From positions 1 to 64,000 of the forward strand of contig JASLPY010000007.1 in NCBI GenBank assembly GCA_030744755.1: a stretch of DNA of 64,000 nucleotides, read 5' to 3'. Source of the stretch: Kiritimatiellia bacterium (lineage in GTDB: Bacteria > Verrucomicrobiota > Kiritimatiellia > UBA8416 > JADHWI01). This document shows positions 32,831 to 57,599 of the stretch, piece by piece. Under the pieces are notes generated by a model. That model was not told the DNA's origin and did no database searches. It worked only from the letters and a program-made list of their open reading frames with translations. The translations under genes and the position numbers were made by a program. Each line of letters starts with the position of its first letter. Position 1 is the first letter of the stretch.

Positions 32831-32904
32831 TATTATGCGTTAGTTGGTTGCTCTTTGCAATTGGCTGCAAGATTAAGGTCTTTGTTTTCGCAATTTGGAT
32901 TCTG
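32831..32904 (-). promoter_or_regulatory. Conserved intergenic element, copy A (upstream of 29629..32739)
   Basis: tattatgcgttagttggttgctctttgcaattggctgcaagattaaggtctttgttttcgcaatttggattctga; shares tcgcaatttggattctg exactly with copy F. Confidence 0.6.
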
Positions 32905-32958
32905 AACAGGTGGTGTGCGCTCCTGTTGGATTGATTGGTCGTATTGATCGGATTCGTT

Positions 32959-33900
32959 TTACAGTGTCGGTCCCGCATTGATTGCGTCGGAGTCGATATA
33001 GATCGGTTCGATGTCGCCGTTTTCGCGATAATGAACCGGGCTGATCCAGAAATCACGAAAGAAGCGGTTTCCGGAGAAGCACATCTCGCAATAGGTAAAG
33101 TACCACTTACCCTTCCATTCGAAGAAGTTGCCGTGCCGGCCCTGCGTCGGGCCGTTTGGCCAGGTGCGTTCGCGGAAGCGGGCTTCCATGCGGTCGGGAT
33201 CCACGATGCAGCCGCGACAGGTATAGGGTCCCTTCAGGTCTTCTGACGTTGCGTAGTAGCTGCCCCAGGAGAGATAGTACGTTTGGTTGTACTTGTGCAA
33301 CGACACCTTGTCGTCGGTCTTGCCTTTGCCGTACGGACCTTCAGGGTTGATGACGGTGATCGGCTGCGGCTCCCCTTCGATCGACTTCATGTCATCAGCC
33401 ATTTTCGCGATGAAGTAGTTCCAGACGCCGAACAGGATGTAGACCGTGCCATCGTCTTCCTTGAAGAACGCGGGGTCATAGACGGCCGTATCGACACACC
33501 GATGGGGAAGTAAGGGCTCCCCAAGTTCGTCCGTCCAGGGCCCGCCGGGAGAATCGCCGGCCACCATCCCGACCTGGATCTTGTCGTCGGGACGATTCAC
33601 TTCGGAGAAGGCCCAGTAGTAGCGCCCATTCTTCTCGACAGCATCCGTGGCCCAACAGCCATCGATGCGCTTACCGATGTAGGTGTCTTCCGGCTTGAGG
33701 GTGGATTCCAATTTCCAGTTCAGCAGGTCGTCAGACGACCATACCTGCCAGTCCTGCATGATGAACTTCGGGTTGTCCACGCACAGATCGTGGGATGCGT
33801 AGAGATAGGCACGCCCATCGAAAACATGGATATGCGGATCGTTCACTCCCTGGCCAATGATATTGATGACCTCTTTCAAAGATCGCCTCTTCTGTGCCAT
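32959..33900 (-). CDS. Glycoside hydrolase family 43-like
   Basis: GVNDPHIHVFDGRAYLYASHDL; DWQVWSSDDLLNWK; CWATDAVEKNGRYYWAFSE; YDPAFFKEDDGTVYILFG; start uncertain (ORF to 33966). Confidence 0.85.
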   Translation of the reverse strand: MAQKRRSLKEVINIIGQGVNDPHIHVFDGRAYLYASHDLCVDNPKFIMQDWQVWSSDDLLNWKLESTLKPEDTYIGKRIDGCWATDAVEKNGRYYWAFSEVNRPDDKIQVGMVAGDSPGGPWTDELGEPLLPHRCVDTAVYDPAFFKEDDGTVYILFGVWNYFIAKMADDMKSIEGEPQPITVINPEGPYGKGKTDDKVSLHKYNQTYYLSWGSYYATSEDLKGPYTCRGCIVDPDRMEARFRERTWPNGPTQGRHGNFFEWKGKWYFTYCEMCFSGNRFFRDFWISPVHYRENGDIEPIYIDSDAINAGPTL

Positions 33901-34000
33901 AGACGGATTCTGTTCAACGGCCCTCTGTTTTCTCTTGTTACTTTTTGGGCTTCTTTCTCTGCTCATACTGCTGCAAGGTTTTGCTCTGCGAGCCCGATAA

Positions 34001-35428
34001 TCATCTGAACGCTGCTTCGATCATTTGTGCGTTGAGCTGTTCCCACTCTTTGACGAGTTCCTTGAGCAAGGCAGGTTTCGATTTCGCCAGGTTGTTCTTC
34101 TCTGAAATGTCTTCTGATACATCATAGAGTTCCCACGCTGACCCCTGTCTGACGACCTTCATGTCCCCCTTTCGCAGAGCCCGTTTCGCCCCTTGCCTCC
34201 AGTATAGAGAGTCATGGGGGTTGCCCTCCTTTTCACCCTTGATATACGGGAGAAGATTGACACTATCCAACTTTCCGGCATCCGGCACCGTCAGTCCCGC
34301 CGCTGCGAATGTTGTGGCAAAGATATCGGTGGTTACCACCGGACGTTCATAGGTTCTTCCTTTTGGTATGCTACCTGGCCACTGAACCATGAAAGGAACA
34401 CGGATGCCGCCTTCATACATCTGGCCTTTCTCTCCGCGAAGCGGCAGGTTGCTACTGGTCAGCTCTCTCGTGGGACCTCCATTGTCGCTGATGAAATAGA
34501 TCATGGTGTCATTCTCCAACCCCTCGCGGCGTATCGTTTTGGTGACCTCACCAACACTGTCGTCGAGGTTCGCAAGCATGGCGGCAAAGATCCGTCGCTG
34601 AATGTCCTCAATATGCTCAAACTTCTTCATGTACTTGTCCGCGCCCTGCAGAGGGCTGTGGACGGCGTTGTATGCAAGAAAGAGAAAGAAAGGCTTGTCA
34701 CGGTGTCGCTTGATGAAATCGACCGCTTCCCGGGTAAGGGCGTCCGTCAGGTAGGCCTGCTCGTCAACAGGCTGGCTCCCGCGGAGTATGGGGTTGTCTG
34801 CATCATAGTCCGGCTCATCGTACTTCATGTGCGTGCTGTATGTTACTTTTCCGAACGTCCTGCGTCCTTTTCCGCCTCCCGGCAAGGTCCTGCGTCGCAA
34901 CCAGGTCGAGGTGCCTTTCCACGGGGGCGGAACAAAGTAATGTCCTTCGTGCATGAACCCATAGAACTCGTCGAAGCCACGCCTGTAGGGATGGTAATGT
35001 GCGGAGCCGCCGAGGTGCCATTTCCCGATGACGCCCGTTACATAGCCGGCTTTCTGCAAAGCTTCAGCCAGTGTTTTCTGCTTAAGGGGAAGTCCCATGC
35101 CGGGATCTTCATTCTTGGCGCCGGTCGGGTTGAACTCATGCCCAAAGCGCGTGCCGTAACGCCCCGTGAGCAATCCCGCACGTGACGGACTGCAGTTCGG
35201 TGCCGTAACGTAACCTGAAGTGAAACGCACACCTGCAGCAGCAATGGCATCGATGTGCGGCGTTGGAATTTGATGATTCCCCTGGCAGCCGAGCTCACCG
35301 TATCCAAGGTCATCCGCGAGCAGAATGACCACGTTGGGCATACCAGCCACCCGCTCGGAAACGCCGGGCACAGCCCCCATGGATACCCCCGAAAACAGCA
35401 GCACAGCTATGAAGAATAAGCTTTTCAT
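34001..35428 (-). CDS. Secreted sulfatase (S1 type, Cys formylglycine signature)
   Basis: Signal peptide; NVVILLADDLGYGELGCQG; PNCSPSRAGLLTGRYGTRFG; GKWHLGG. Confidence 0.93.
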   Translation of the reverse strand: MKSLFFIAVLLFSGVSMGAVPGVSERVAGMPNVVILLADDLGYGELGCQGNHQIPTPHIDAIAAAGVRFTSGYVTAPNCSPSRAGLLTGRYGTRFGHEFNPTGAKNEDPGMGLPLKQKTLAEALQKAGYVTGVIGKWHLGGSAHYHPYRRGFDEFYGFMHEGHYFVPPPWKGTSTWLRRRTLPGGGKGRRTFGKVTYSTHMKYDEPDYDADNPILRGSQPVDEQAYLTDALTREAVDFIKRHRDKPFFLFLAYNAVHSPLQGADKYMKKFEHIEDIQRRIFAAMLANLDDSVGEVTKTIRREGLENDTMIYFISDNGGPTRELTSSNLPLRGEKGQMYEGGIRVPFMVQWPGSIPKGRTYERPVVTTDIFATTFAAAGLTVPDAGKLDSVNLLPYIKGEKEGNPHDSLYWRQGAKRALRKGDMKVVRQGSAWELYDVSEDISEKNNLAKSKPALLKELVKEWEQLNAQMIEAAFR

Positions 35429-35476
35429 GTAAACCCGCCCCTTTTTATTTCAATTTGAAGAAAGGTAAAGACTGCC

Positions 35477-37972
35477 TCAGCGTGGGATGTACCAATGCGA
35501 ACGCCAATATTTTTCGTCCGTTTCGTAGATGTCGACCGACGTTTCGTCTGAGAATTTCTCTGGCAAGACGCCGTAATTCTTCATCTCGCGAATGTAATGT
35601 TTGTTGGGTCGAAACTCCGGCATGTCAAATCGTTTGGTGAATTTCTCAAAGCCCTTCTTTATTTTTTCAATTTCTCCCAACAGCGCCTGGTAATCAGGAT
35701 TGCTTTGGTCGGGTAAAACCGGCTCTTCATTTCCGACCGCTTTCGAAGTCAGCTTCTCTCCTTTCTGCCAGCTTTCTAATTCCTCCGTCGACAGTGGACG
35801 GCATATTCCATATCCACCAGCCGATTTTGCAAGCGGGGCGAGCAGGATCATCGAGTTTTCCGGACGGGATAGATTGATAGTCATCTCTCTGCAGAACGGA
35901 AACATCGGATCGTCCTTGATTAGCTGATGCCCTTGTGCAAAGCCTTTAACCCCACCACCACGGTGCAACGTGGTTTTACCTGAATGGCACGACCCACAAC
36001 GGCGTTCTAGAGCCTGTTGATTCACTCTACCTCTGGATGTACCCGATCCCAGCGAAGCGTAAGTGCCGGGATACGGGGCAGCGCTTTCGATCCAATAACG
36101 GATCATGTCGACCTCGTGAGCCGATAGTTTCGCGTCATAGTGCGACCCGTCTATCAGTTTCATCAACGGACTGGCCGAAGTGCCGACCTCCCGCGGCGCA
36201 CGATTACCATCGCCGTTCCGCGCATCGACCACCAGGTTCTTTGCAAACAGAGTGAGATATGAATGTGAATAAGTCGGGCTGCGATCGCCGGAGAGGACTA
36301 TTCCGCCGGCACGTGGACCATCTTTTCCGGTCTTCTGATAGTCGTGACAGGACAGGCAATGCTTATCGAGAATCGGCTGAATATCGCGGGGAAAATCGAA
36401 CACACCGGGGATGTTCTCCAGCGGTTTGATCCTTTGTGCCGGCCTCTTCATGGCCATATTTATACGCGGACTATCCGGTGCCGATGTTCGATCTTCATGA
36501 CACCCGATACAACCAAGCTGTTCGCCCGGTTGCACTGTCAGGAAACTCTGCATTCGCTTGACCGACATGTCATTCTCGTCCAATGCCACGAAGAAGATGC
36601 TTCGCATAGCCGGCAATTCGAAGTTAGCGCTGCCATCCTTTTCGACATCAACAGTGCCGAGAACACGTTCCAGCGTAAACGTGCCGCCAAAGCTGATGGG
36701 CCACCAGCTGCCGTGAAAGTTAACCGGTTTAGGGAGCGCTTCCAGAACCAGCAGTTTCTTAATATCGCCTGGCTTGACGCCCTTCATGCTGCGGCCCTTG
36801 TAGACATTGTCTAACACAACTGTTCCGGTCGATTTCGACTCGTCAACACGCGAAGGGATCACAGGTTCACGTTTTCTTCCACGCAATTGCCTGGGCTCGT
36901 GAACCGTCAGGCCTTCGTCTTGCCATGCTTCAGGCAGAGTCCAGATGGCTTCATAATTGTTGTTTGAGTCAAGCACGCCGAAATCGTTCACATTAGCCAC
37001 GAGAAAGAGTTGTTCGGACAACGGGTACGGATCGCAGTAGAGCTTCCTGCCCGAGATGGGCTTCGCTGACGTCAGATCATCCGGACCATTCCTCGGATCA
37101 ACAATCGTTACCACGCCAAGGTGTTCGGCTTTTCCGTGTTTCGGCGAGAAAGAAGCAACGACTTTTGTCGTATTCGGAATAGGTTTGGCATCGATCATGA
37201 CTGTGTACGGATGCATATTCCCATAATAAACCATCTGGTTACTGCCATCGGGATTCATTGTCCACAGATGGTGGTATCTTATCTGAGCGCGGTCGATATA
37301 TTCCCAGCGCGTGTAGAGGATGCGGCCATCGGGGAGAACCCAGGGAGTATTATCATGTTCGATATTACACGATAGCGCCCGCATGTTTTTGCCACCTGCC
37401 CTGAGCTCCTCTGCCGAAGGGTCCGCATCGCAACGGTAGATGTTGGCAACCCGAACAACCCAGCAGTTCACCCAGCGATTGCAGCGACTTGAACAGAAGA
37501 CGATCCCGCCATCGGGCAGATAGGCGGGTTCAAAATCATCATACGGTCCGTGAGTGATCTGGCGCAGGCCCGAGCCGTCAATGTTGATCTCATAGAGATG
37601 ATAAAACGGCTGGCCGCCTTTCCGGTATGAGAACAGGATCTTCTTCCCGTCGTAGTGCATCTGCGGATCTCGAACGCCGCCGGCGGGATCATCGAGTAGT
37701 ACCTCCAGCTTCTTATCGTGAATGCTGTATCGACAGAGCTTTCCGCCGTCACAATAAAATGTTCTCTCCGGGTTTCCCGAATGATAACTGAAGTTTTCGT
37801 ACCAATGGACTCTCTCCATATGGGTTTTTCGGGCAACAAAAACAATGTCCGAAACACCATGCTGCTTAACTTGATCCAAGAGCGAGGTGTCAGCGTTTGT
37901 GACAGCAGCAAAGCAATGAATTGTGCCGCCTAGCACAATCCCTGTCATTATGATGAGAATCCGTCTGAACAT
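35477..37972 (-). CDS. Secreted TolB-like/HZS-alpha-like protein with three CXXCH heme motifs
   Basis: Signal peptide; INIDGSGLRQITHGPYDDFEPAYLPDGGIVFCSSRC; CIGCH, CLSCH, CGSCH. Confidence 0.7.
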   Translation of the reverse strand: MFRRILIIMTGIVLGGTIHCFAAVTNADTSLLDQVKQHGVSDIVFVARKTHMERVHWYENFSYHSGNPERTFYCDGGKLCRYSIHDKKLEVLLDDPAGGVRDPQMHYDGKKILFSYRKGGQPFYHLYEINIDGSGLRQITHGPYDDFEPAYLPDGGIVFCSSRCNRWVNCWVVRVANIYRCDADPSAEELRAGGKNMRALSCNIEHDNTPWVLPDGRILYTRWEYIDRAQIRYHHLWTMNPDGSNQMVYYGNMHPYTVMIDAKPIPNTTKVVASFSPKHGKAEHLGVVTIVDPRNGPDDLTSAKPISGRKLYCDPYPLSEQLFLVANVNDFGVLDSNNNYEAIWTLPEAWQDEGLTVHEPRQLRGRKREPVIPSRVDESKSTGTVVLDNVYKGRSMKGVKPGDIKKLLVLEALPKPVNFHGSWWPISFGGTFTLERVLGTVDVEKDGSANFELPAMRSIFFVALDENDMSVKRMQSFLTVQPGEQLGCIGCHEDRTSAPDSPRINMAMKRPAQRIKPLENIPGVFDFPRDIQPILDKHCLSCHDYQKTGKDGPRAGGIVLSGDRSPTYSHSYLTLFAKNLVVDARNGDGNRAPREVGTSASPLMKLIDGSHYDAKLSAHEVDMIRYWIESAAPYPGTYASLGSGTSRGRVNQQALERRCGSCHSGKTTLHRGGGVKGFAQGHQLIKDDPMFPFCREMTINLSRPENSMILLAPLAKSAGGYGICRPLSTEELESWQKGEKLTSKAVGNEEPVLPDQSNPDYQALLGEIEKIKKGFEKFTKRFDMPEFRPNKHYIREMKNYGVLPEKFSDETSVDIYETDEKYWRSHWYIPR

Positions 37973-38030
37973 TATTCCGTGCGTCCTATCCTCATTTGGT
38001 CTTCGGCCGCAGAATGGCTTGCCGGCTACT

Positions 38031-38101
38031 ATATACTGTGCGCGGGTTGGCGATTTCGGTCAACTGTCCATTTGAGTGTTTGGTATGGCAGTTTGGATTG
38101 C
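38031..38101 (-). promoter_or_regulatory. Conserved intergenic element, copy B (upstream of 35477..37972)
   Basis: atatactgtgcgcgggttggcgatttcggtcaactgtccatttgagtgtttggtatggcagtttggattgc. Confidence 0.6.
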
Positions 38102-38154
38102 GCGACGAGCGTTGTTGACGGGGGCTTCCGAGAAGGTGCGGAGTGGGGGGGGGG

Positions 38155-39654
38155 CTAATCACTCCCCTTACCCGATCCGGCAGGTTGATCAATGGCGAGT
38201 CTTTCATATTGACAATCTGGGGCATCTGCCTGTTGTAACAGTATCCTGAGCTTCTCTGTCAACTCTCTCTCGCGTTTGTGGTCGTGAACTGGCTTCCTCT
38301 GGTTGGGATCATTCTCAAGATCGTAAATCAAGTGCTGGCCATCGCAGCCTTGAGGGAGGCCTGACTGGCGTATGAGACGAAAGTGGGGGATTCCGTTACT
38401 GTGTTTGAGGTATGTGCCCAGCTCTGCTTTCAGTACTTTGCTCGGGTGTGCTGTGCTGAAATCTGTGAAGTGGAAATCGCATGTGGAGTTCGGGGTTGGC
38501 ATGCGGTGATAGGTATACTTACCATCGGTCATGTTAACTTCCCGGCCAAAGTACCCGAAAAGAAGGCCATCGTGGTGATGGCCGTCCTCTTTGAGGAGAG
38601 GAACGATGCTTTTTCCCATGACAGACTCGGGGATATCCCGGGCCCCGTGCATATCCAGGATTGTTGGCATAACATCTATGGCACCGGTCAATGCCTGCCG
38701 TCGCCCCGGGATTGCTCCAGGATAGCGGACAATGAAAGGCAGGTGCACTAATTCGTCATAGCACATCATGTAGTTCTTTGCCCACAGACCGTGTTCTCCC
38801 AGCAAATAGCCGTGGTCCGTCGTCAGAATCACCGCAGTGTCTTCCCACATATTGAATCTATCCATCATGTCGAGGAGTTGCCCCAACTTACGATCGATCA
38901 TTGTTAGCGTAGCGGCGTAGGCCTTTCGTAGATGCTCAACAGCTTCGGGCGTGTCCTTGTCCCTATGCAAAGGCGCATAATCGGGACAGGTGCTGGGAGG
39001 TCCGTCCCACTGGTCACCGTATTCATCCAGGTATGCCTGAGGGCAATCAAATGGTTCATGGGGATCAAATAGCTCCAAATGAAGATGCCAGTTGTCCTCG
39101 CCATGGTTGCGTTCGATAAAGTGGCAAGCCGCCTCTATGCATTGTACCGACGAGTAAGCATCATCCTTTTCAGTATCCCGGTACTCCAGATTTGCCAAAT
39201 GTTGATGCTGATACCTCTTGCCATAGCAGTACTTCCGGGCTCCTACTGGTAGTGGTTTGGGATTGACAACACCATGCCATGGATCCCAAGGCTGGCCTCT
39301 CATGTACTCCCATGAATCAAATATGTTCTGATATCGATCACCAGCACCACCGTTGAAATAGTGACAGTGATCCGTGATCATATGGGAGTAGGTACCAATC
39401 TCGTCCCTCAGCAGTGTGGGTAGAAGCGCATCCCATGGCTCAAGGGGGCCCCATCCCGTCTCAAGAAAGTTAACCCGACCTGTTAGTAGATCCCGGCGTG
39501 CAGGGATGCAAGGCATGGAGCCGCAGTAATGTCTGTCAAAGATAACCCCTCCCGCCGCCAGCCTGTCGATGCTCGAAGTATTGACCCAGTCGTTGCCGTA
39601 GACTGACAACATGTGCCGATTCAGAGAGTCCATTAAGATGAATATTGTACGCAT
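38155..39654 (-). CDS. Sulfatase without evident signal peptide
   Basis: MRTIFILMDSLNRHMLSVYG; GSMPCIPARRDLLTGR signature; TTDHGYLLGEHGLWAKN. Confidence 0.88.
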   Translation of the reverse strand: MRTIFILMDSLNRHMLSVYGNDWVNTSSIDRLAAGGVIFDRHYCGSMPCIPARRDLLTGRVNFLETGWGPLEPWDALLPTLLRDEIGTYSHMITDHCHYFNGGAGDRYQNIFDSWEYMRGQPWDPWHGVVNPKPLPVGARKYCYGKRYQHQHLANLEYRDTEKDDAYSSVQCIEAACHFIERNHGEDNWHLHLELFDPHEPFDCPQAYLDEYGDQWDGPPSTCPDYAPLHRDKDTPEAVEHLRKAYAATLTMIDRKLGQLLDMMDRFNMWEDTAVILTTDHGYLLGEHGLWAKNYMMCYDELVHLPFIVRYPGAIPGRRQALTGAIDVMPTILDMHGARDIPESVMGKSIVPLLKEDGHHHDGLLFGYFGREVNMTDGKYTYHRMPTPNSTCDFHFTDFSTAHPSKVLKAELGTYLKHSNGIPHFRLIRQSGLPQGCDGQHLIYDLENDPNQRKPVHDHKRERELTEKLRILLQQADAPDCQYERLAIDQPAGSGKGSD

Positions 39655-39718
39655 TATCGATATGTGCTCCTATGGCAATACGCATTGCGAAACGGCCCGG
39701 GCATCAGCCCGGTGCGGA

Positions 39719-41386
39719 CTACTTCAGCAACTGAACATATACAAAGTAGGCACCCCAGGCCGGGTCATCATCAAACCGGGTGGTCATGTCATAGACGCCT
39801 TTCTTCAGGGAGATGTCGATTGGGGCACTGACGTCAGAGGTCTTGATTTCCACTGAAGCTGTGGCAGCGCCAACTGTCAGGCTTGCCTTGGCGGCGCCTA
39901 TGGGCACGGGCGCATCTTTGGGATAACGCCGAAGCTCAAAGCGGTAACGACCATCCTCCGGGACCTCAATAACCCATGTACCGTTGAATGTGCCCTTTAG
40001 TTGTGACTGGCGAAAGGGTTGATCCCCTTTGTACCAGGCGTGCGTGTCCAGCCGGACCTCGTTCACATCGGGTCCGCTGATCAAAATTGTCGGTCGAACG
40101 TCTTCAACACTCGGCAGCGACTTCCAGAACTCGTCATAGTGTGCCTGAAGGAGAGATACCACTTCAGGGTGCGCCTCCGCGACATTGTGTAGCTGCAGCC
40201 AGTCCTTTTCTGCATCAAACAGCTTTGTTCCATTGACCAGTCGCCACTTCCTTGTCTTAACGGAGACATTCGTGTCCTTCTTACGGTCCCGGCTGCGGGG
40301 ACACTGAACAATGAGTTTTCGATCGTCGGCCCAGTCAATCTGCCCCGACAAGAGCGGACGCAGACTACGACCATCCACATTCGCGGGCACCTGGACCCCG
40401 GCAGCTTCCAGGATGGTCGGCATGAGGTCCACCATGCCAGACAGGGCATTCGAGGTGTGACGTTCTCCCTGCCAGGGTGGGTACCGGACGATACAGAAAA
40501 CATGATGGCGGGGGTCATAGCCTTGTGCGGAGTTCAGCTTGATGCCCTCGGGATGTCCACGCCCATACATGCCCTGGTCCGTTGCCACGATCACCATTGT
40601 TTTGTCGGTGAGCTTCAGGCGGTCGAGCTGATCGAGCACATAGCCGACGTTGTCGTCTACATTCTCAACACCCGAGAGCAGACTCAGATGTTTCAGGTCT
40701 TCGGACACGCCCCGCTTGATCATGCGCTCACGGCACCCGGCATGCGGCTTGAAGTCATGTACCGCGGGCGTGGAGATAAAGGCAAAGAAGGGGCGGTCCT
40801 TATTCGCTTCAATGAAATCCATGCCCCGACGAAAAAGCACGTCGGTAGAATGTCCCTTCGTTTTGACGTCCCGGCCATTATGCTCGTAGGTGCCATCCAC
40901 ATAGCCATTGCCGATGTAGTCCTGCATCTGCCCGATGAACCCGCCACGATGCACAAAGACCTCTTCAAAGCCGCGATACTTCGGCTGGTAATCATAGGAA
41001 TGCCCAAGATGCCATTTGCCGAAAATACCGGTGCGATAACCGGCTGACTTCAGATAATCGGCAACCGTCTTCTCCTCCTTGCGCAGAATGCAGAAACCGC
41101 CAATGGTGTTGTGGATTCCGCTGCGCAGAGAATAGCGTCCGGTCATCAGTGACCCGCGGCTGGGAGAACAGTAGGGCGCCGCGTAGAACCGGGTAAAGTC
41201 GACCCCTTGGGAGGCCAGGGCATCGATGCGCGGGGTCTGCACCACCTTATGCCCATGCGCGCTCAGTTCATAATAACTCTGGTTATCCGTCAGGATCAGG
41301 ACGATGTTGGGCTTCTGCGCCGCCGCTGCATAAAAAGCCGCAGACAACAGAAGCCACAGAGATGGCAGAACAAGTCGAATACTCAT
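39719..41386 (-). CDS. Secreted arylsulfatase
   Basis: Signal peptide; NIVLILTDNQSYYELSAHGHKV; PYCSPSRGSLMTGRYSLRSG; FGKWHLGHS. Confidence 0.93.
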   Translation of the reverse strand: MSIRLVLPSLWLLLSAAFYAAAAQKPNIVLILTDNQSYYELSAHGHKVVQTPRIDALASQGVDFTRFYAAPYCSPSRGSLMTGRYSLRSGIHNTIGGFCILRKEEKTVADYLKSAGYRTGIFGKWHLGHSYDYQPKYRGFEEVFVHRGGFIGQMQDYIGNGYVDGTYEHNGRDVKTKGHSTDVLFRRGMDFIEANKDRPFFAFISTPAVHDFKPHAGCRERMIKRGVSEDLKHLSLLSGVENVDDNVGYVLDQLDRLKLTDKTMVIVATDQGMYGRGHPEGIKLNSAQGYDPRHHVFCIVRYPPWQGERHTSNALSGMVDLMPTILEAAGVQVPANVDGRSLRPLLSGQIDWADDRKLIVQCPRSRDRKKDTNVSVKTRKWRLVNGTKLFDAEKDWLQLHNVAEAHPEVVSLLQAHYDEFWKSLPSVEDVRPTILISGPDVNEVRLDTHAWYKGDQPFRQSQLKGTFNGTWVIEVPEDGRYRFELRRYPKDAPVPIGAAKASLTVGAATASVEIKTSDVSAPIDISLKKGVYDMTTRFDDDPAWGAYFVYVQLLK

Positions 41387-41450
41387 AGCGTACTTTTGCC
41401 CTAACTTCAGATATCAATGCACAGTCTCCATGGCGACCGCCAAGGGATTT

Positions 41451-41523
41451 CCTATACCCTACGTCGGTAGGCTATGCCAGACAACTCTCCATTCAGGTCT
41501 TTTGCATGGCAATTCGGATTGCC
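41451..41523 (-). promoter_or_regulatory. Conserved intergenic element, copy C (upstream of 39719..41386)
   Basis: cctataccctacgtcggtaggctatgccagacaactctccattcaggtcttttgcatggcaattcggattgcc. Confidence 0.6.
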
Positions 41524-41707
41524 GATCCGGGAAGGAGAACGAAGGCCCGGCCGCGGAAAGATCCTCGTGGGGTCACTCTCCAGGAGGGCGCTACCCAGTC
41601 GACCTGGTCCCTTTGCAGTCGGGGTAGCCGCTGCATCCCCAGAAGTCGCCCCGATCATCTGGACGACCGTCTTCCCGAGTGGATCCTCTTTCCAGGGGAT
41701 GAGCGCC

Positions 41708-42991
41708 CTATTTCTTGGTGATGCTCTGCCAATATTCCTGACTCATCTTCTTGAGGTGAGTAACGACTTCAGGGGATTGTCCGGCTAGGTTATTTGTCTC
41801 ACCCGGATCGTTTGGGACATCGTAGAGCTCAGTTTTCTTGCCAGTAACAACCAGTTTCCATTTCCCTTCGCGTATGGCCCAGGACCTCCCCGATTTCCAG
41901 TTAAATCCTTCATGAGCGGATGGCGAGTCCGCAGACTTGATGATCGGGGTGAGGCTTTTGCCATCAATCTTGTGGTCTGCAGGCGGAAGTTTACACAGCT
42001 CAAGAAGAGTCGGGTACCAGTCGCAACCCGTTGCCAGTTGGTTGCGTACCTGGTCTTCAGGAAGATGTCCGGGCCATGAGATGATGGCAGGAATGCGCAA
42101 TCCCCCTTCATAAAGACTGAACTTGGCGCCTCGGTACGGTCCCGAATAGCCTCCGCCGCCATGGGCTCGAGATTCCGTTGAATGCCCGTGGTCAGACTGG
42201 AAGATCACAATCGTGTCCTTTGTCAATCCTGAATCATCCACCTTCTTCAGAAGTTGGCCGATACGTTCATCGATCGTGGAGAGGAACGCCGCGTACAGGT
42301 TGCGGGGGTACTTCAGGTTCTTGTAATGCTCCAGCCACTTGGGCGACCCCTGGTAGGGATAGTGCGGAGTGTTCATGGCGAAGTAGATGAAGAACGGCTT
42401 GTCCTTGTTCTTGTCGATGAACTGGCTTGCCTCCTTGACCATGAGATCAGGGAAAAACTCGCCATCGTGAAACACTTCCTTACCGTTGCGCCAGAGATCG
42501 TGCTTGTTCGGACCGCTCCAATAAAAGAAGTGGGAATAGTTATCGATGCATCCAACAAGATGTCCGAAGGAGTGATCGAACCCCTGGCCGTTGGGAATCG
42601 TCTCCTTCGAGTGCCCAAGATGCCATTTTCCTATATGTGCCGTGGCATAGCCGGCTTTCTTGAGTTCTTCAGCAATCGTTACTTGGGACGACGGCATGCC
42701 GACACTGTTGAGGCCGACGTTGCCATTTAAGCCTCCGCGCTGTGGTGTGCGACCAGTCATCAATCCGACCCGTGATGGAGAGCAGACTGGGGCCGCTGCA
42801 TAGAACTGAGTGAAACGTACTCCACTCTTGGCCAGTTTGTCCATGTTAGGCGTGGCGAGATCGGTTGCACCATAGACATTCATATCCATTGAACCCTGAT
42901 CATCGGTGAAAATGATGATCACGTTTGGCTGCCTTGCCATGAGAGTTGATGTCAACAACATGAATGCGAGTAATGTAAGACGGTATATCAT
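41708..42991 (-). CDS. Secreted sulfatase
   Basis: Signal peptide; NVIIIFTDDQGSMDMNVYGATDL; PVCSPSRVGLMTGRTPQRGG; GKWHLGHS. Confidence 0.93.
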   Translation of the reverse strand: MIYRLTLLAFMLLTSTLMARQPNVIIIFTDDQGSMDMNVYGATDLATPNMDKLAKSGVRFTQFYAAAPVCSPSRVGLMTGRTPQRGGLNGNVGLNSVGMPSSQVTIAEELKKAGYATAHIGKWHLGHSKETIPNGQGFDHSFGHLVGCIDNYSHFFYWSGPNKHDLWRNGKEVFHDGEFFPDLMVKEASQFIDKNKDKPFFIYFAMNTPHYPYQGSPKWLEHYKNLKYPRNLYAAFLSTIDERIGQLLKKVDDSGLTKDTIVIFQSDHGHSTESRAHGGGGYSGPYRGAKFSLYEGGLRIPAIISWPGHLPEDQVRNQLATGCDWYPTLLELCKLPPADHKIDGKSLTPIIKSADSPSAHEGFNWKSGRSWAIREGKWKLVVTGKKTELYDVPNDPGETNNLAGQSPEVVTHLKKMSQEYWQSITKK

Positions 42992-43001
42992 GTAGCTCCT
43001 T

Positions 43002-43050
43002 TGTATACTCTACGCCGGTTGGCTATTTTAGCCAACTCTCTAGTTAGACC
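43002..43050 (-). promoter_or_regulatory. Conserved intergenic element, copy D (upstream of 41708..42991; right half interrupted)
   Basis: tgtatactctacgccggttggctattttagccaactctctagttagacc; perfect GTTGGC..GCCAAC. Confidence 0.6.
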
Positions 43051-43055
43051 CCATC

Positions 43056-43200
43056 CGAAGAGGGTGCTGGAGCCCGGCGGGCCTCCGCCGGCTGTGCAAT
43101 GCCAGCGCATTGACTTGCGGCACGGAGGAACTTCGTTCAATTCTGTCACGTTTATGCACATCCCTTGCGCCAGGCGGCGGAGGCCCGCCGCACTCCAGTG
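43056..43200. repeat. MITE-like inverted repeat, GC-rich arms
   Basis: gtgctggagcccggcgggcctccgccgg ... ggcggcggaggcccgccgcactccagtg. Confidence 0.7.
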
Positions 43201-47995: not shown

Positions 47996-47998
47996 GAT

Positions 47999-49123
47999 CT
48001 ATCGCTTCCTTTTCGGTTCTTCAGTAATTGCCTTGATCGTCTGCTCTGCCAGCTTGACATGGGCTTTGTGGTCACCGTGTTTGTGTTTTTGGGCTGCCCA
48101 GCTTTCGATCAACTTTTTCACATCTGGTGCTGTATGTTTGGCCATCGTACCGTAGGTGCCCAGCGCTTTCAGCGCAGCCGGGAGGCGGTGTCCGAACCCC
48201 CATCGATTCTCCTTGGCGACCATAACACAAAGCGGTATGCCCTCTTTGATCTTCCAGTTCGCGAGCATCTGAAGTGCCTGTACTCGCGAACCGTCAGCAA
48301 ACATTCCGTCACGCATGGCCCGATTATTGATACACCAGATAAGATCTGGAACTGCAACCTTTGCCCGATCGCCATACTTCGCGATCGAACGGACCGCATG
48401 GCCGCGTGCCCGGGGTTTGGGGTGACGAATCATCTTTGTCAGCAGGGGAAGAACCTTTTCGGGGTCGGCCTCCTTAAATCCAATGTACTTGTCAAGAAAC
48501 CGCATCGACGGACCTCCTACCCAGTCGGGTGAAGTCACCGATATTTCGAGCATCTTTAATGCGGCAGGCTGAGCCGCGCCTCCAAGATCGCCAAGCAAGT
48601 TAGTCACCTGGTAGAGGATCAACGGCTGTGGGTCGTCGAGCAACTCGGTCAGCTTCGGCACCTGCGCGCTGATTGCCGCTTTAACCTTCTCGACATCACC
48701 TATTTCCTTCTTGGAAACAGGAAGGTGCATCCGTTTTCGCTTATCAAGTTCTCTAGTGTAATAACGCCACATGGTCCGCAGCGCCGTCGCCGCACCGCAT
48801 CGAACCTGGTAGTTGGGGTCGTCGAGCCCGACCACTATCGCTGGAATCGCCGCCGAACCTTTTACAGCCAACGCCTTGCTGATCTGAACACGATAGGCGG
48901 GTGACCAGTGATTAAGCTTCTTAACCAGCTGGTCGATAGACAGTTTATCCAGCGCTTCAAGCGTTGGCGGCGCACCAAGCGTTTGCCCGTAGTCCGCAGG
49001 ACAACGCGCCTCAATGGCATCAAGCTGCGCTTTCAACGACGCCTCTTCAGCAAGGGCAAACCCAGACAAGCCGCCCCAGAAGAATCCGAGCATTAACAAT
49101 ACAAACAATGATTTGCGTTTCAT
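47999..49123 (-). CDS. Secreted HEAT-repeat protein
   Basis: Signal peptide; GSAAIPAIVVGLDDPNYQVRCGAATALRTM; HPKPRARGHAVRSIAKYG. Confidence 0.7.
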   Translation of the reverse strand: MKRKSLFVLLMLGFFWGGLSGFALAEEASLKAQLDAIEARCPADYGQTLGAPPTLEALDKLSIDQLVKKLNHWSPAYRVQISKALAVKGSAAIPAIVVGLDDPNYQVRCGAATALRTMWRYYTRELDKRKRMHLPVSKKEIGDVEKVKAAISAQVPKLTELLDDPQPLILYQVTNLLGDLGGAAQPAALKMLEISVTSPDWVGGPSMRFLDKYIGFKEADPEKVLPLLTKMIRHPKPRARGHAVRSIAKYGDRAKVAVPDLIWCINNRAMRDGMFADGSRVQALQMLANWKIKEGIPLCVMVAKENRWGFGHRLPAALKALGTYGTMAKHTAPDVKKLIESWAAQKHKHGDHKAHVKLAEQTIKAITEEPKRKR

Positions 49124-49132
49124 GGTAGTCTC

Positions 49133-51202: not shown

Positions 51203-51253
51203 CGGTAGTTACTCCAGGTTGGTTAGCAAAAGGTTTTTCGTGTTCATGGGGGA

Positions 51254-53014
51254 CTACTTCTGCGTTTTGCTCCACGCTTCGTATTCTTCGAGGACTTTGC
51301 GGGCCTGCTCGGCTTTGCGTTTCCAGGCCTGACGTTTCGCATCGTCACCTGTCGGGACCTCGGGGTTGACGACCGCGTTGATCATGGACGTGTCGTTCCA
51401 GGCGGGCCAGTCGTCCGTGCGGAACGGCACGGCGGGGCCCGCCCGGTTGCCGAAGTTCGCCTGCGGATGAACGCCCCACGCATAACGGACGGCGACCGGC
51501 TCTTTCACGAATTCGCTCGAGGCTGCGTACGTGCTACCCCCTACGTGCACGACCTTGGCCGGGTAGAAGTGGCGATCCTTCCCCGCGATGACGAATCCCC
51601 TCGGTGAGACGCGACTGCCATAAACACAACCCGGATAGCTGGTTTTGATGAACGAAAGCACAATCTTGTCGCCCTCGACCTCCCAGGACTCGAGCATCGG
51701 GATGATGTACTTAATCCCCGGGACTTCATAGACGTCGGCCAACGCCCAGCGTGCGGCGCGGGTGCCGATCGGCTTTTTGTTCGGCGAGTGCATTTGAATA
51801 TGGCCCAGGTCGTAGGTGCAAACCAGGCCCGTGTTTTCGTTTTCAAGGTGTGCTTTCGTCTGTGCTTCACGAGTGCCGGCCGCCTTTGAGAGCATAAAGA
51901 ACTCCGGCTCGTTCGCGTCATTGGGATAGCCCCAACTGGTCATCTGGATCATGCAAAACGGCAGGTCTTTGTCGCCAAACGCTTTTCGCCAATCGGGAAT
52001 CAGTGCCGGATACATCTTCATACCAAGGTTGGGATTCGCCTGTTTGCCGACCGAGTTGTTCATCCCTTGATAGAAGAGCACGCCCTTGATTGAGAACTTC
52101 TGGATCGGCGCGATCAGTGCGTTGAAACAACCGCCCGGGAAACCTTGGGTATATTTGTACGTCTCCGGTACAACCGGTTTGGCCGACGGCTTGTGCCCCT
52201 TGGCTTTCATAGATTCCGCATGACGGCGCCAATTGCCCATCCTCCGTTCGAGCTCCACTTCAGGATCGTAGCTAGCGGCCAGGTTGTCGTAATACTTGAT
52301 CAGCTCGTCCGCTTCGGGGATCGAAGAAAGTGTCTCGCGCGAAATCCAGGTCTCGACGGCGCTTCCACCCCACGAGTTGTCGATCAATCCGATCGGGACG
52401 CCGGTCGTCTCATGCACGATCTTCGCGAAACGATAGCCGACGGCTGGGAACTGACGCGTGTTCTCGGGCGTACTGGTTCGCCAAACGCCCTTCAGCTCGA
52501 CGTAGTACGGATTGCGCTCTTCGATCGGGAAGTTGTCGAGCGGTGTGGGGGTCGAGCGAAGCGGAATGGTGAGGCAGCGGATGTTCGAATGGTTGGCCCG
52601 CGGCATATCGATATCCGAATCGAAGATCCCGCCCGCCTCCGCTTCCATGTTGCTTTGTCCACTACACAGCCATACGTCACCGACGACAACATTCTTGAAC
52701 ACCAGGAATTCCCTCTTCCCCTTGACTTTCAGTTCCCGAGGCTTGGCATTCACGGGCATTGGCTCGAGGGTCAGCGTCCAATTGCCGTTATCGTCAACGG
52801 TCGTCTTCTCTGCCTGTCCTCCAAACTCGACGCTGATGGAGTCGCCCTTGTCACCCCAGCCCCAGACATTTACCGGCTTGTCGCGCTGCATGACCATACC
52901 CTCTCCAAAAATGCGCGGCAGCTCCAGCTTCGCTACAGCCGGCATGGCAGCCTGGAAGAACGCGGCAACCATTGAAATGCAGACTATATACGTACGATAG
53001 TGGTTTATCTTCAT
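51254..53014 (-). CDS. Sialate O-acetylesterase-like protein, secreted
   Basis: LPRIFGEGMVMQRDKPVNVWGWGDKGD; VVVGDVWLCSGQSNMEAE; IDNSWGGSAVETWIS; FYQGMNNSV; likely start MKINHYRTYIVC within ORF to 53101. Confidence 0.87.
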   Translation of the reverse strand: MKINHYRTYIVCISMVAAFFQAAMPAVAKLELPRIFGEGMVMQRDKPVNVWGWGDKGDSISVEFGGQAEKTTVDDNGNWTLTLEPMPVNAKPRELKVKGKREFLVFKNVVVGDVWLCSGQSNMEAEAGGIFDSDIDMPRANHSNIRCLTIPLRSTPTPLDNFPIEERNPYYVELKGVWRTSTPENTRQFPAVGYRFAKIVHETTGVPIGLIDNSWGGSAVETWISRETLSSIPEADELIKYYDNLAASYDPEVELERRMGNWRRHAESMKAKGHKPSAKPVVPETYKYTQGFPGGCFNALIAPIQKFSIKGVLFYQGMNNSVGKQANPNLGMKMYPALIPDWRKAFGDKDLPFCMIQMTSWGYPNDANEPEFFMLSKAAGTREAQTKAHLENENTGLVCTYDLGHIQMHSPNKKPIGTRAARWALADVYEVPGIKYIIPMLESWEVEGDKIVLSFIKTSYPGCVYGSRVSPRGFVIAGKDRHFYPAKVVHVGGSTYAASSEFVKEPVAVRYAWGVHPQANFGNRAGPAVPFRTDDWPAWNDTSMINAVVNPEVPTGDDAKRQAWKRKAEQARKVLEEYEAWSKTQK

Positions 53015-53123
53015 GACCCAGATACTCCTATCCGTGTGTTCCGTGACTGTAAGAGGAATTCGGTTTCGCCGACTTCTTCTCTTGACCGACCCTCCGGTCA
53101 ACCCGACTACGACTACAGGTTCC

Positions 53124-53192
53124 TAATATTGCGCCAGTGGTTGCGTTTCCGCAACTAGCGATTCGGGTCTTTCTTATCGCCATTTGGAGTCT
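53124..53192 (-). promoter_or_regulatory. Conserved intergenic element, copy E (upstream of 51254..53014)
   Basis: taatattgcgccagtggttgcgtttccgcaactagcgattcgggtctttcttatcgccatttggagtctg; perfect GTTGCG..CGCAAC; homology to copy F continues to ~53247. Confidence 0.65.
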
Positions 53193-53355
53193 GTCGACTA
53201 TAGTTGATCATTGACTGGGTGAGACAACGACAATCGACAAGAGGGCACTTCAGGGATTAGCGGGGGATATTCTGTCCGAAACCGAAGTTCAGAAGCCGGA
53301 AAGGGCCGGAATCTGCTGCCGGCCGTGGGACACACCATCGCCCGCGGGCCAGGAG

Positions 53356-54255
53356 TCATACAACCTCGATACGATCGGCAATCCGGCGGAAGAAGTCATT
53401 CGACCAGACCTCCACGGCACGGCGATCCCGCAGGAACCGCACCACTTCCGTGCGGGCCCGGGGAACATCGAGCTCGTCTGCCGCGTCGCCAAGCCTGTCA
53501 ACAAGGGCTTTGCGGCTCAGCGGAGAGGGATCGCTGTAGTCGCCGGACTGGCGCATCCTTGCTTCAAGATGACTCAGATGCAGCGGTGTCCCCCGGCCGA
53601 GATACCACGCCAGGTCATACCAATCGCGCCCCTTGACCCGGGTCTTCCACCGGCGGCAGAGAACAGCGTGCAGTTTCCCCGCAAAGAGGTCGGGGAGCGC
53701 GTAGACGCGGACAGAGAACGGAATGGGCTGAAGCAGGTATTGGTTCTCCGTCTGGAAGCCCGGCGGCGGGTCCGTATCGATCTCGACCTTCACCTTCAGC
53801 TGCCTGTCCGGGTGCAGGCCTTTCAGGATGCCTGGATCGGCTTCGATCACCATGAGTTCGCGCAGCGTGTTCGTCTTCAGAAATGCCGACTCAATCGCTG
53901 TTTGTCGTTCGGCGGGGCGTGTGGGTTGCTCGAAATTGACATGAAAGCCGAAACTGCGGATCTCGCGCTGCAGACTGTCGCCATATGCGCCGAGGCGAAA
54001 GTCGGGATTCGGGGCCAGCAGGGAGAAGTCAAGATCCTCGGAGTAACGGTCCAAGCCATACAGCACCCGAAGGGCCGTACCGCCATAGAACGCGGCGTGC
54101 TCGAAGAACTTCGACCGCCAGAGACCGAGCAGGGCAACTTCCTGGATGATCTCACGCGCCGCATTCTCGTAGTCATCGCGAGTCCGGCAATTGTAGGCAT
54201 CAAGCATTGTCTTTACGGCGTCATGCACGGGCGGGCTCCCTGAGGGTGTTGACAT
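53356..54255 (-). CDS. AbiEii/AbiGii-family nucleotidyltransferase toxin
   Basis: FYGGTALRVLYGLDRYSEDLDFSLL; DLFAGKLHAVLCRRWKTRVKGRDWYDLAWYLGRG. Confidence 0.88.
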   Translation of the reverse strand: MSTPSGSPPVHDAVKTMLDAYNCRTRDDYENAAREIIQEVALLGLWRSKFFEHAAFYGGTALRVLYGLDRYSEDLDFSLLAPNPDFRLGAYGDSLQREIRSFGFHVNFEQPTRPAERQTAIESAFLKTNTLRELMVIEADPGILKGLHPDRQLKVKVEIDTDPPPGFQTENQYLLQPIPFSVRVYALPDLFAGKLHAVLCRRWKTRVKGRDWYDLAWYLGRGTPLHLSHLEARMRQSGDYSDPSPLSRKALVDRLGDAADELDVPRARTEVVRFLRDRRAVEVWSNDFFRRIADRIEVV

Positions 54256-54874
54256 AGCGGATCAGTCGGTCAATCTTCCGGGAGCTGTAGGCTACACACA
54301 CAGCCTCGAGCCGTTCCCCATCCAGCAACCGGAGGCGCTCGATATCAACACGCAGATCATGTGCAAGGTAGTCCTCGTATGCGGCCACGGTCGCTCCAGA
54401 GAAGCGCTTGTCATCCCACACCTTATCGGCGAGGGCCTTTTCCGGTGATGCGAGCAGGAACGACTCATTCTCGCCCTGCTGCAGCAACACCGCCGTCGCG
54501 TACCGTGGTTCCGGGAGAGATCGGTAGGTGAAGATTCCGAACGGCGTTGTGAAACTGCGCGAACGCCCGGTGGTCACCGAGGTCACGGTGGTCACCCGTT
54601 CCGGTATGAGGCCGTGCCATGCGAGGGCGTAGTCCAGACTGATGTAGGAGGGGCCGTAGATCAGGTTGGCCAGAAGCTCCCGGCTCACGGGAGCGCGCCG
54701 GTAGGCATCGCCAAAGACGTAGAGGCCCTTCTTGACGCGGACAATATCGCCCGCATCCAGTAGCCGCTTGACTCTATCGCGTGGCTTTGCGTAGGTGGTC
54801 AGGCACTGAAGAAGCCTCTGATAGTCAAAGACCTCTCTGTCAATCTGCTGCCTTATCTGCCCAATAGTTCGCAT
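54221..54874 (-). CDS. AbiEi-like antitoxin/transcriptional regulator
   Basis: RVKRLLDAGDIVRVKKGLYVFG; LANLIYGPSYISLDYALAWHGLIPERV; overlaps the toxin gene. Confidence 0.85.
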   Translation of the reverse strand: MRTIGQIRQQIDREVFDYQRLLQCLTTYAKPRDRVKRLLDAGDIVRVKKGLYVFGDAYRRAPVSRELLANLIYGPSYISLDYALAWHGLIPERVTTVTSVTTGRSRSFTTPFGIFTYRSLPEPRYATAVLLQQGENESFLLASPEKALADKVWDDKRFSGATVAAYEDYLAHDLRVDIERLRLLDGERLEAVCVAYSSRKIDRLIRYVNTLREPARA

Positions 54875-55027
54875 TTACTAATCCATTTTCAGCATGCTAT
54901 GTCCACGATCCATGGACATAATACTACAAGAATAGGCATAAAAGGCAAGCGAAATTGACCTGCCCCCCCCCTCTGAAGCGAGCTAGTGCGCAGAGAAAAG
55001 GGGCCAATAGCCAATAAGGATTTTTCC

Positions 55028-55044
55028 TACGGGGTCGGACCACG
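55028..55044 (+). repeat. Third, partial copy of the GGGGTCGGACCACGG repeat core
   Basis: acggggtcggaccacgg. Confidence 0.6.
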
Positions 55045-55133
55045 GCAAGAGCCTTCTGCGAAGCGATGTAGATCAATGCTGCCAGTGAGATCTAAACGCG
55101 TGAGATTCTCCTTACCCCACAGCATGAGGTATT

Positions 55134-55216
55134 AGGCGCTAGGCAACTAGTGGTTAGGTCCTGCTAGTCCCTAGCAAACTAACGCCTAACACCTGCGATT
55201 TGCGCGACAGCGCAAA
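55134..55216 (+). repeat. Dispersed repeat related (inverted) to 45567..45640
   Basis: ttaggcgctaggcaacta...tttgcgcgacagcgcaaaacgctc vs reverse complement of 45567..45640 (ttaggcgctaggcaacta...tgcgctcacagcgcaagaacgctc). Confidence 0.55.
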
Positions 55217-55309
55217 ACGCTCTCTACCCAAAAGGCTTGACCTGTGATCCGTAAGTGATACTATATGATCCGAGGTGTGACCCATATGCCGAACCACAAG
55301 GAGGCCAAA

Positions 55310-55567
55310 ATGAAGTCATTGACGCTACACGCGATGGATGATCAACTGGCGGATCAAATCAGGCGTCGAGCAAGCGAGATGTCGATAAGCATGAATGAGC
55401 TCGCCAAACGCGTTCTGGCTGAAGGCCTTGGGATCAAGACGCCGGCGAAGCCGCCTCATAGGGATGACTTTGCGCCATTCTGTGGAACCTGGAGCGAGCA
55501 TGACCTCGAGGAGTTCAACCGCTGCGTGGCCGATATGGAAACAGTAGACGCAGAGGACTGGCGATGA
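55310..55567 (+). CDS. FitA/VapB-like RHH antitoxin
   Basis: AAGGAGG upstream; MKSLTLHAMDDQLADQIRRRASEMSISMNELAKRVLAEGLG; 4-bp overlap with the PIN gene. Confidence 0.8.
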   Translation: MKSLTLHAMDDQLADQIRRRASEMSISMNELAKRVLAEGLGIKTPAKPPHRDDFAPFCGTWSEHDLEEFNRCVADMETVDAEDWR

Positions 55568-55953
55568 AGAAGGTGCTTCTGGATACAAATGCATACACCG
55601 CGTTGCGGAGCGGCGATGAAAGCATCCTGGATGTGCTGGGACGAGCCGAAACGGTCTTTATGTCCGCCATCGTACTGGGGGAACTGCACGCCGGTTTCAA
55701 GGGGGGAAGCAAGGAGGCCGTGAACCGCGGAGAGCTTGAAGAATTCAACAGTCGGCCAACCGTACGGATCCTGCACGTCACCCAGGAGACCGCGGAAATC
55801 TTCGGGACGATCAAGCATCGCCTCAAAACAGCGGGAACACCCATTCCCGTCAACGACGTCTGGATCGCCGCTCACGCGACCGAAGCCGGCGCATTCCTCG
55901 TCACTCACGACGAACATTTCAACGCCGTTCCCGGCCTTCTGCTCTGGCAGTAA
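55564..55953 (+). CDS. VapC-like PIN-domain ribonuclease toxin
   Basis: VLLDTNAYTALRSGDESILD; VFMSAIVLGELHAGFKGG; PIPVNDVWIAAHATEAGAFLVTHDEHFNAVPGLLLW. Confidence 0.92.
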   Translation: MKKVLLDTNAYTALRSGDESILDVLGRAETVFMSAIVLGELHAGFKGGSKEAVNRGELEEFNSRPTVRILHVTQETAEIFGTIKHRLKTAGTPIPVNDVWIAAHATEAGAFLVTHDEHFNAVPGLLLWQ

Positions 55954-56140
55954 GGCTCCACCCGCAACATCAGTCCCTATAAGAATTGATAAGCAATCGC
56001 TTTCCGGGAGTCGCCGCTGCAGAAAGGCTGGCCGCCCGGACTTCCGCAATAAGCAGGTAGTCGCCGCTATGCGAGATCGTGACACGGTTGGCCTCCACGT
56101 TCGCCGGAGGCGTATAGCGCCCATACAGCAGGTTCCCATC

Positions 56141-56190
56141 GCACTTATCTCCCTCCAAGCATGTGACTTACCGTGGTCCGACCCCTATGG
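56141..56190 (-). repeat. 50-bp repeat, left copy (inverted relative to 58761..58810)
   Basis: Reverse complement ccataggggtcggaccacggtaagtcacatgcttggagggagataagtgc; 49/50 identity to the right copy. Confidence 0.9.
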
Positions 56191-56231
56191 ATAACCGGCC
56201 AATAACGGCCGGACCTGAGCTAGCCGAAGGC

Positions 56232-56933
56232 CTACTTCCCGTAGATCAACGTCCCAGAGGTGGCGGGGTCGACGACTGTGCCTTGTACCGCGAATCCGTC
56301 GAAACCGACGAAGATTCCGCCGCCGATACCTCCTCCGTCGCCGACCTGTAAGTTGAGAGTCCAGGTATCGCTACTGGTGAGTGTAACCGGTGTTCCGAAA
56401 GAGAATGTCTCTACTCCGGCAGGGCCGCCCCAATCCCCAGCCCCAGGATCGAGCGTTACTTGGCCGACTTGCCCGGCACTTGCCCCACTCAACGTCACGA
56501 TAATTGGATAGGACCTATTAAGGTAGGTGCCGTTGAAGTTGCCGCTGCCGTTGAAGTGCTGACGACCCAGAATGACATCTGAAATCTGCACGGCCGCGCC
56601 AGTCACGGTCAGGGGGATGTCAACATTCCATTCGCCGTTATTGATGTTAACGCTCGGGGCATAGTGGCCGGTCGCATTCGGCGTCGTGAAAAGCGAGTGG
56701 GTAGGGCTCTGGCTGGCGCCGCTCAGAGAAGACGGACCGGTTAGACTGTTCTCAGTCGTGTAGGTAATATTGCTGAGCGTAGAACCGTCGTTTGATGTGC
56801 CGTCGAATCCGGTTTCAAGCAAGACGTCGGCGTTCGCCGAGGTGGCTGCAAGAACTAGGGTCGCCATCGCCACGGCGACGAGGGCCATTACGATGTTGGT
56901 TCGGTTTCTTGTAATGATTATTGATTTCTTCAT
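56232..56933 (-). CDS. Secreted beta-rich protein of unknown function
   Basis: Signal peptide (VMALVAVAMATLVLAATSANA); Gly/Ser/Thr-rich; resembles PEP-CTERM-type exported proteins but no PEP-CTERM tail. Confidence 0.6.
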   Translation of the reverse strand: MKKSIIITRNRTNIVMALVAVAMATLVLAATSANADVLLETGFDGTSNDGSTLSNITYTTENSLTGPSSLSGASQSPTHSLFTTPNATGHYAPSVNINNGEWNVDIPLTVTGAAVQISDVILGRQHFNGSGNFNGTYLNRSYPIIVTLSGASAGQVGQVTLDPGAGDWGGPAGVETFSFGTPVTLTSSDTWTLNLQVGDGGGIGGGIFVGFDGFAVQGTVVDPATSGTLIYGK

Positions 56934-57313
56934 TCTCTTTGCTCCAATCTTGATCTTACTTCTGCTCTGTTAACTTGCGTGCAATACAGCCCGCTCACGC
57001 GAGCAAACCGATATCCGGCATCAGTTGATCATAGGCAGGGGCCTCCTTTCGGAGTTGGGGGTAGAAGAGAAAGGGTTTCGTGTGTTGGGTGTCGCATGCG
57101 GGGGCCCAATCGTGACCCGCCATCGTCCACCGGTCTTCCGGTCGGTTGACGAGGTTGAACGGTCGCAAAGGAAGCAGCGACGTATCTCCGACGTGTCGCG
57201 GCGAAACGAAGCAAAGACGGAGACGTCGCAGGAGGGGCACGCCTCGGATGCGTGCCTACTGTCGGCCGCCCCACTCACCGCCGGACTCCCGAGGCCGAGG
57301 GAAGACCTCAGTC

Positions 57314-57336
57314 GAGAGAGAGAGAGAGAGAGAGAG
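57314..57336. repeat. GA dinucleotide microsatellite (23 nt)
   Basis: gagagagagagagagagagagag. Confidence 0.95.
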
Positions 57337-57470
57337 CTAGGGACGTGCCAAATGGCGGGCGGTCTTTCTAGTGCGGCGTTCTGTGTGTATGCAGCAAACA
57401 TCTGGTCCTCTCACAGGTTCCCGATTGGCAAGGGCAGCCCTGTACTGTTCAAACCCTCCCTTTCAACTGT

Positions 57471-57540
57471 GTATTCTGCGCCGGTTGGTTCTTTTAGGCA
57501 ACTAGTGATTCAGATTTTTCTTATCGCAATTTGGATTCTG
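57471..57540 (-). promoter_or_regulatory. Conserved intergenic element, copy F (upstream of the XylR-type regulator gene)
   Basis: gtattctgcgccggttggttcttttaggcaactagtgattcagatttttcttatcgcaatttggattctg. Confidence 0.65.
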
Positions 57541-57599
57541 TCGACTACAGTTGATCATGGAGTATGTTAGACAACGACAGTCGACAAGAGGACATAGCC

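Follow-up and report, generated by a model that had tools for sequence, protein, structure and literature searches.

What are six similar intergenic blocks doing among the sulfatase and esterase genes of a single bacterial gene cluster, and beside the gene for a XylR-type regulator? The blocks, A to F, were described by a first-pass annotation of positions 1 to 64,000 of Kiritimatiellia bacterium contig JASLPY010000007.1 (this 64,000-nucleotide stretch is the window), which offered two readings: the operator set of the adjacent regulator or a structured 5' leader. The analysis presented here strongly favors the first. We assign a probability of about 0.8 to the six copies being activator-dependent promoters that serve as local operators for the adjacent XylR-type regulator, which is predicted to bind them. 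The operators are predicted from co-location, placement at operon starts, a 21-bp tandem architecture, a fixed promoter geometry, and the parallel of a second, unrelated family of elements (family 2).

All six blocks are present where they had been described. The copies of this family (family 1) align across ~67 columns, 27 of which are invariant in A, B, C, E, and F; D, previously called interrupted, is truncated and has lost half-site 1. Read on the minus strand, in which direction the target genes are transcribed, the element has the consensus AATCCAAATTGCGATAAnAAAGACCTGAATCGCnAGTTGCCTAAAAnAACCAACCGGCGCAGAATAT. The motif as first written runs opposite to transcription, and its minus-strand 'TATACTC' end is the promoter -10. 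Scored with a matrix derived from the remaining four, each of A, B, C, E, and F reached z = 8.6-10.5, far higher than anything in 1 Mb of Markov sequence. A sequence-only model scanned against the source genome (6.28 Mb in 530 contigs, 90% complete) returned the five full copies with E = 7e-18 to 2e-14 and D, which is half a copy, with E = 1.9e-4; beyond these six, no match in the genome fell under E = 0.63. The six-copy set is far beyond chance.

All six copies lie inside one 25-kb stretch. The scan of genome and relatives that the first-pass annotation had proposed covered 346 genomes of the class, the source genome included, and gave no match in the other 345, leaving the element restricted to this cluster. 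The scattered distribution expected of a mobile repeat, which the first-pass annotation had named as refuting its reading, is excluded by the genome scan. A mobile or passively duplicated repeat with no regulatory role would account for the 118 bp that E and F have in common through duplication, but is very improbable: there are 0 copies outside the cluster in 6.3 Mb, the copies stand in a single orientation and at operon starts only, and the sequences flanking A, B, C, and D are no longer recognizably similar, whereas the element was retained.

The first-pass annotation took an inverted repeat as the core of the element. The main repeat, overlooked there, is a direct one: the strongest internal repeat of the family-1 profile matches columns 1-14 to columns 22-35 at an offset of 21 bp, with the half-site consensus nAYCYRAATnGCnA. 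Column permutation gives p = 0.002 at the preset offset of 21 bp and p = 0.04 over all offsets from 10 to 39. TTG (-35, columns 37-39) and YAnnnT (-10; Y60, A61, and T65) are spaced 17 bp apart in 6/6 copies, which is sigma-70 spacing. Measured from the start of half-site 2, TTG lies at offset 15 and YAnnnT at 38 in all six copies once a 5-bp insertion that separates half-site 2 from the -35 in A is removed, and none of 2000 shuffles reached the -10 score at the YAnnnT offset. The geometry of both families was spotted by inspection and then shuffle-tested, such that these tests are not wholly independent of the choice of register. As in AraC/XylR-type tandem operators, two direct-repeat half-sites are found ~21 bp apart (one of them lost in D), and the -35 of the promoter to be controlled adjoins or overlaps the proximal half-site. 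Both that -35 (TTGnnn) and the -10 (YAnnnT) are poor, and F, C, and D gave no strong promoter in strict sigma-70 and terminator scans. Poor consensus matches are expected if the promoters are activator-dependent.

The minus-strand genes of the cluster extend from 53.1 to 27.5 kb (Table 1), with E heading the first operon and D, C, B, and A at the boundaries between operons; the other intergenic gaps of the cluster (3-126 bp) hold no family-1 copy. As the first-pass annotation stated, A-E precede the starts of minus-strand genes and share one orientation, and each of them begins an operon. D is only 10 bp from its sulfatase gene, and its predicted transcription start (~43000) falls at the Shine-Dalgarno sequence AGGAG, 9 nt ahead of the sulfatase ATG. 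F does lie upstream of the regulator, 60 bp from the plus-strand gene, but is oriented as A-E are, so its promoter points away from the regulator. Judged by family names only, the substrate of the cluster would be a sulfated, acetylated, pentose-rich glycan.

The regulator combines a LacI-like Peripla_BP_3 sensor (9e-27) with a C-terminal AraC-type HTH_18 domain (2.6e-19). This is the composition of the XylR subgroup, in which a LacI/periplasmic-binding-like sensor precedes an AraC-type double helix-turn-helix, and the best PDB match is Escherichia coli XylR (4fe4/4fe7, E = 7e-29, full length). No close ortholog is present in the genomes searched, where the best relative is 41% identical in the same genome (contig C85) and 37% identical elsewhere; the family, order, and class provided 0 orthologs for footprinting, and a contig scan for regulator relatives gave AraC-domain matches only. 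The region upstream of the 41% paralog holds no family-1 element, as in the genome scan, and the one 37% relative in a phylum sample has no obvious element in the sequence read. With the element found only in the source genome and no close regulator ortholog in the others searched, motif and regulator are present or absent together. At 59656-59763, ~0.9 kb past the end of the intact gene, there is a partial second copy of the regulator gene, encoding 34 aa at 79% identity. In addition, a 51-bp inverted repeat (98% identical, 56141-56191 and 58760-58810) encloses the regulator, F, and gene 56232-56933, and the segment between its arms could have been inverted at some point.

The six copies are not fully independent, as E and F share a 118-bp block (82% identity) that reaches past the element into the regulator leader. 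An imperfect inverted repeat located between F and the ribosome-binding site of the regulator also adjoins E (53192-53239), where no regulator gene follows. Judged from this shared block, E and F are a duplicated divergent promoter flanking an insert of ~4.2 kb, with what reads as a remnant of the regulator leader on the E side. This arrangement suggests that the regulator and the SASA operon once shared a divergent promoter, which was later duplicated around the insert. The insert itself carries an AbiEii-type nucleotidyltransferase gene (53356-54874), possibly part of a type IV toxin-antitoxin pair with 54221-54874.

A search for comparable designs around the other XylR-type genes in the source genome revealed family 2 on contig C519. 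Its pattern, GTGCGCAAAC-N12-GTGCGCAAAY-nn-nGGTAG, is unrelated in sequence to family 1, and GTGCGCAAAC recurs at 22 bp. The exact pattern has seven matches in the genome, all on C519 (control, 0), and copies precede genes for a sulfatase and a URO-D-type protein, among others. C519 also encodes a pair of XylR-type regulators, the longer of 401 aa, that are 83% identical. A stricter version of the pattern is present in six genomes of the class. One genome of the same order and another family (G392) carries six copies on a contig that encodes an 85%-identical regulator. Genome G400 carries copies on a contig ending in a 74% regulator fragment, and family 2 is also found in genome G397. Of 19 copies from four genomes, 17 have YAnnnT 38 or 39 bp past the point where half-site 2 starts, and TAG occupies the -35 triplet at offset 15 in nearly all. 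Family 2 is therefore like family 1 in its tandem half-sites, its -35 and -10 offsets, its cluster-local distribution, and its adjoining XylR-type regulators, whereas its half-site (GTGCGCAAAC), its 22-bp spacing, and its distant regulator (26% identity) are different. That two unrelated families, each adjoining a XylR-type regulator of its own, share one geometry is best accounted for if they are the operators of those regulators.

Other AraC-type loci (C166, C480, C111, C331, C210, C497, and C14) show no recurring strict tandem repeat, under a filter that also misses family 1 and that degenerate sites escape. A TTGCGCAAAC tandem repeat stands directly upstream of a distant XylR-type regulator gene (26% identity) at locus L061 (G542:C273), possibly a further case of autoregulation. 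Upstream of the XylR-type gene on C166, positions 11264-11474 of locus L030 contain ~77-bp tandem repeats with two palindromes each (CCAGTTGGCACAACTGGCC and CCAGTTGTGTCAACTGG).

Family 2 also bears on the structured leader, by which the elements would be cis-regulatory RNAs at the 5' ends of the cluster mRNAs. Their position upstream of gene starts in a single orientation would suit such a role, and short hairpins are possible in E and D. However, the unrelated sequence of family 2 preserves the same geometry, and with the conserved TTG-17-YAnnnT, transcription would start downstream of most of the element. Folding energies are ordinary (z-scores of -1.3 to +1.4), and there is no Rfam match. 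The inverted repeat had been said to change in sequence while its pairing is kept; in fact 0/6 pairs are compensatory, and 69% of cells pair versus 67% in shuffles. The pairing GTTGCG/CGCAAC cited for E is shifted in register by 3 bp and is not homologous to the pairs of D and B. We consequently rejected the leader, which we consider highly improbable.

Table 1. Coordinates of the elements, their predicted promoters and target genes, and associated features (window positions unless another contig is named)
Feature	Position	Strand	Details
Copy A	32832..32901	-	half-site 1 32888-32901 (AATCCAAATTGCGA), half-site 2 32867-32880 (GACCTTAATCTTGC)
Copy A promoter	-35 32855-32860, -10 32832-32837	-	predicted; TTGCAA, CATAAT
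Copy A operon	29629-32739, then 27540-29606	-	predicted target; SASA esterase (SASA/laminin-G protein), then second gene, protein without Pfam match
Copy B	38035..38099	-	half-site 1 38086-38099, half-site 2 38065-38078
Copy B promoter	-35 38058-38063, -10 38035-38040	-	predicted; TTGACC, CACAGT
Copy B operon	35477-37972, 34001-35428, 32959-33966	-	predicted target; HZS_alpha-domain protein, sulfatase, GH43
Copy C	41456..41520	-	half-site 1 41507-41520, half-site 2 41486-41499
Copy C promoter	-35 41479-41484, -10 41456-41461	-	predicted; TTGTCT, TAGGGT
Copy C operon	39719-41386, 38155-39654	-	predicted target; two sulfatases
Copy D	43007..43050	-	half-site 1 lost; weak half-site 2 43037-43050
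Copy D promoter	-35 43030-43035, -10 43007-43012	-	predicted; TTGGCT, TAGAGT
Copy D target	41708-42991	-	predicted; sulfatase
Copy E	53126..53190	-	half-site 1 53177-53190, half-site 2 53156-53169
Copy E promoter	-35 53149-53154, -10 53126-53131	-	predicted; TTGCGG, CAATAT
Copy E five-gene operon	51254-53014 (SASA esterase)	-	predicted target; SASA esterase (ATG start), MGH1-like glycoside hydrolase, HEAT protein, DUF6288, GH127
Copy F	57473..57537	-	half-site 1 57524-57537, half-site 2 57503-57516
Copy F promoter	-35 57496-57501, -10 57473-57478	-	predicted; TTGCCT, CAGAAT
XylR-type regulator	57600..58757	+	385 aa; ATG 57600 preceded by AAGAGGA
Shared E/F block	53130..53247 and 57477-57594		118 bp, 82% identity; E/F element and part of regulator leader
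Imperfect inverted repeat	57539..57586	+	15 nt, 18-nt loop; between F and regulator's ribosome-binding site
Family-2 copies (G000 contig C519)	3846, 16904, 17366, 31343, 33023, 36885, 37254, 42412	+	n = 8; loci L032, L042, L043

The inverted repeat could instead be read in DNA form. In that case the elements would be operators of a regulator encoded elsewhere, for example a repressor, that recognizes GTTG(GC)-N7-(GC)CAAC over the -35 and spacer, and the XylR-type neighbor would be incidental or secondary. The repeat is perfect in D, the very copy that lacks half-site 1, and the C, A, and C of the spacer motif CCnAC are invariant in 6/6 copies. Conversely, the palindrome is broken in C, E, and F, the direct-repeat half that lies outside it is conserved better, and the sites that would be expected beyond the cluster are absent from the genome scan. 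A palindromic operator of another factor was rejected as a candidate, the palindrome by itself having 14 sites in the genome versus 15 for the reversed control. A regulator encoded elsewhere is thus unlikely to be the one that these elements serve.

Several observations nonetheless weigh against assigning the elements to the adjacent XylR-type regulator. The two half-sites of family 1 agree with each other at just 8-9/14 positions per copy, and D retains the core without half-site 1. CCnAC, conserved between the -35 and -10 and forming a partial inverted repeat with GTTG, goes beyond what an AraC-type site alone would need. The likeness of the half-site to the E. coli xyl operators is weak, since these are the top match in the 7.5-kb xyl region and are outscored within 50 kb. 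The promoter of F aims at a gene 530 bp away that has no known function. Finally, the collections searched contain no family-1 counterpart from another species, so cross-species support is indirect, via family 2.

If the elements are operators of the adjacent regulator, a dimer of this protein would occupy two tandem half-sites 21 bp apart, or two helical turns, on one face of the DNA. Upon binding of a sugar by the LacI-like sensor, the regulator would recruit RNA polymerase, as is established for AraC-type dimers on tandem sites beside a -35. Judged by gene content, the inducer is probably a pentose or an oligosaccharide that the cluster enzymes release. Five operons would be switched on in this manner, encoding 4 sulfatases, 2 SASA esterases, GH43, GH127, the MGH1-like glycoside hydrolase, and other proteins. 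We infer that the sign of control is activation rather than repression. As F is divergent from the regulator gene, the regulator may also control itself, and autoregulation through F is probable.

XylR-type regulators and sulfatases are abundant in such genomes. We tentatively suggest, with the balance of probability still against it, that throughout the lineage each glycan or sulfatase cluster has its own XylR-type regulator and a private tandem operator at every operon, with one fixed promoter geometry throughout (a half-site spacing of 21-22 bp, the -35 at +15, and the -10 at +38/39). If this is true, the numerous XylR paralogs would constitute a readable code tying regulator, operator, and substrate. 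Two independent regulons with one geometry already provide a rule for finding the operators of glycan clusters and pairing regulators with targets. The rule should be transferable and allow transcription start sites to be predicted in organisms that lack genetics.

As a kind, tandem AraC-type operators of glycan clusters are already known, whereas the regulon described here appears to be undescribed, as do its motif and the geometry that it shares with family 2. The gene content was read as planctomycete-like, and literature searches on planctomycetes yielded no XylR/sulfatase regulon and no operator for XylR-type regulators. The regulator resembles E. coli XylR over its full length in the order of its LacI-like sensor and AraC-type helix-turn-helix, and tandem repeats on either side of the xylA-xylF region likewise score best at an offset of 21 bp, in a comparison that used geometry alone and set the sequence match aside. 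Unlike E. coli XylR, the regulator described here has six local sites, and its targets are sulfatases, esterases, and glycosidases instead of genes for xylose uptake and isomerase. Arabinose-bound AraC occupies araI1-araI2 and recruits RNA polymerase (PMC4760080). The araBAD system likewise has two tandem half-sites beside the -35 and a divergent regulator, although the sensor domain of AraC is unrelated to that of the XylR-type protein, for which no evidence of a looping site emerged, none having been specifically looked for. For the AraC-domain hybrid two-component system (HTCS) regulators of Bacteroides glycan clusters, predicted tandem sites have a mean spacing of 21 bp (PMC3878776). These regulons of polysaccharide utilization loci share with the present one an AraC-type DNA-binding domain, tandem sites at ~21 bp, and confinement to one glycan cluster; HTCS regulators are membrane hybrid two-component proteins, whereas here a one-component protein carries a LacI-like sensor.

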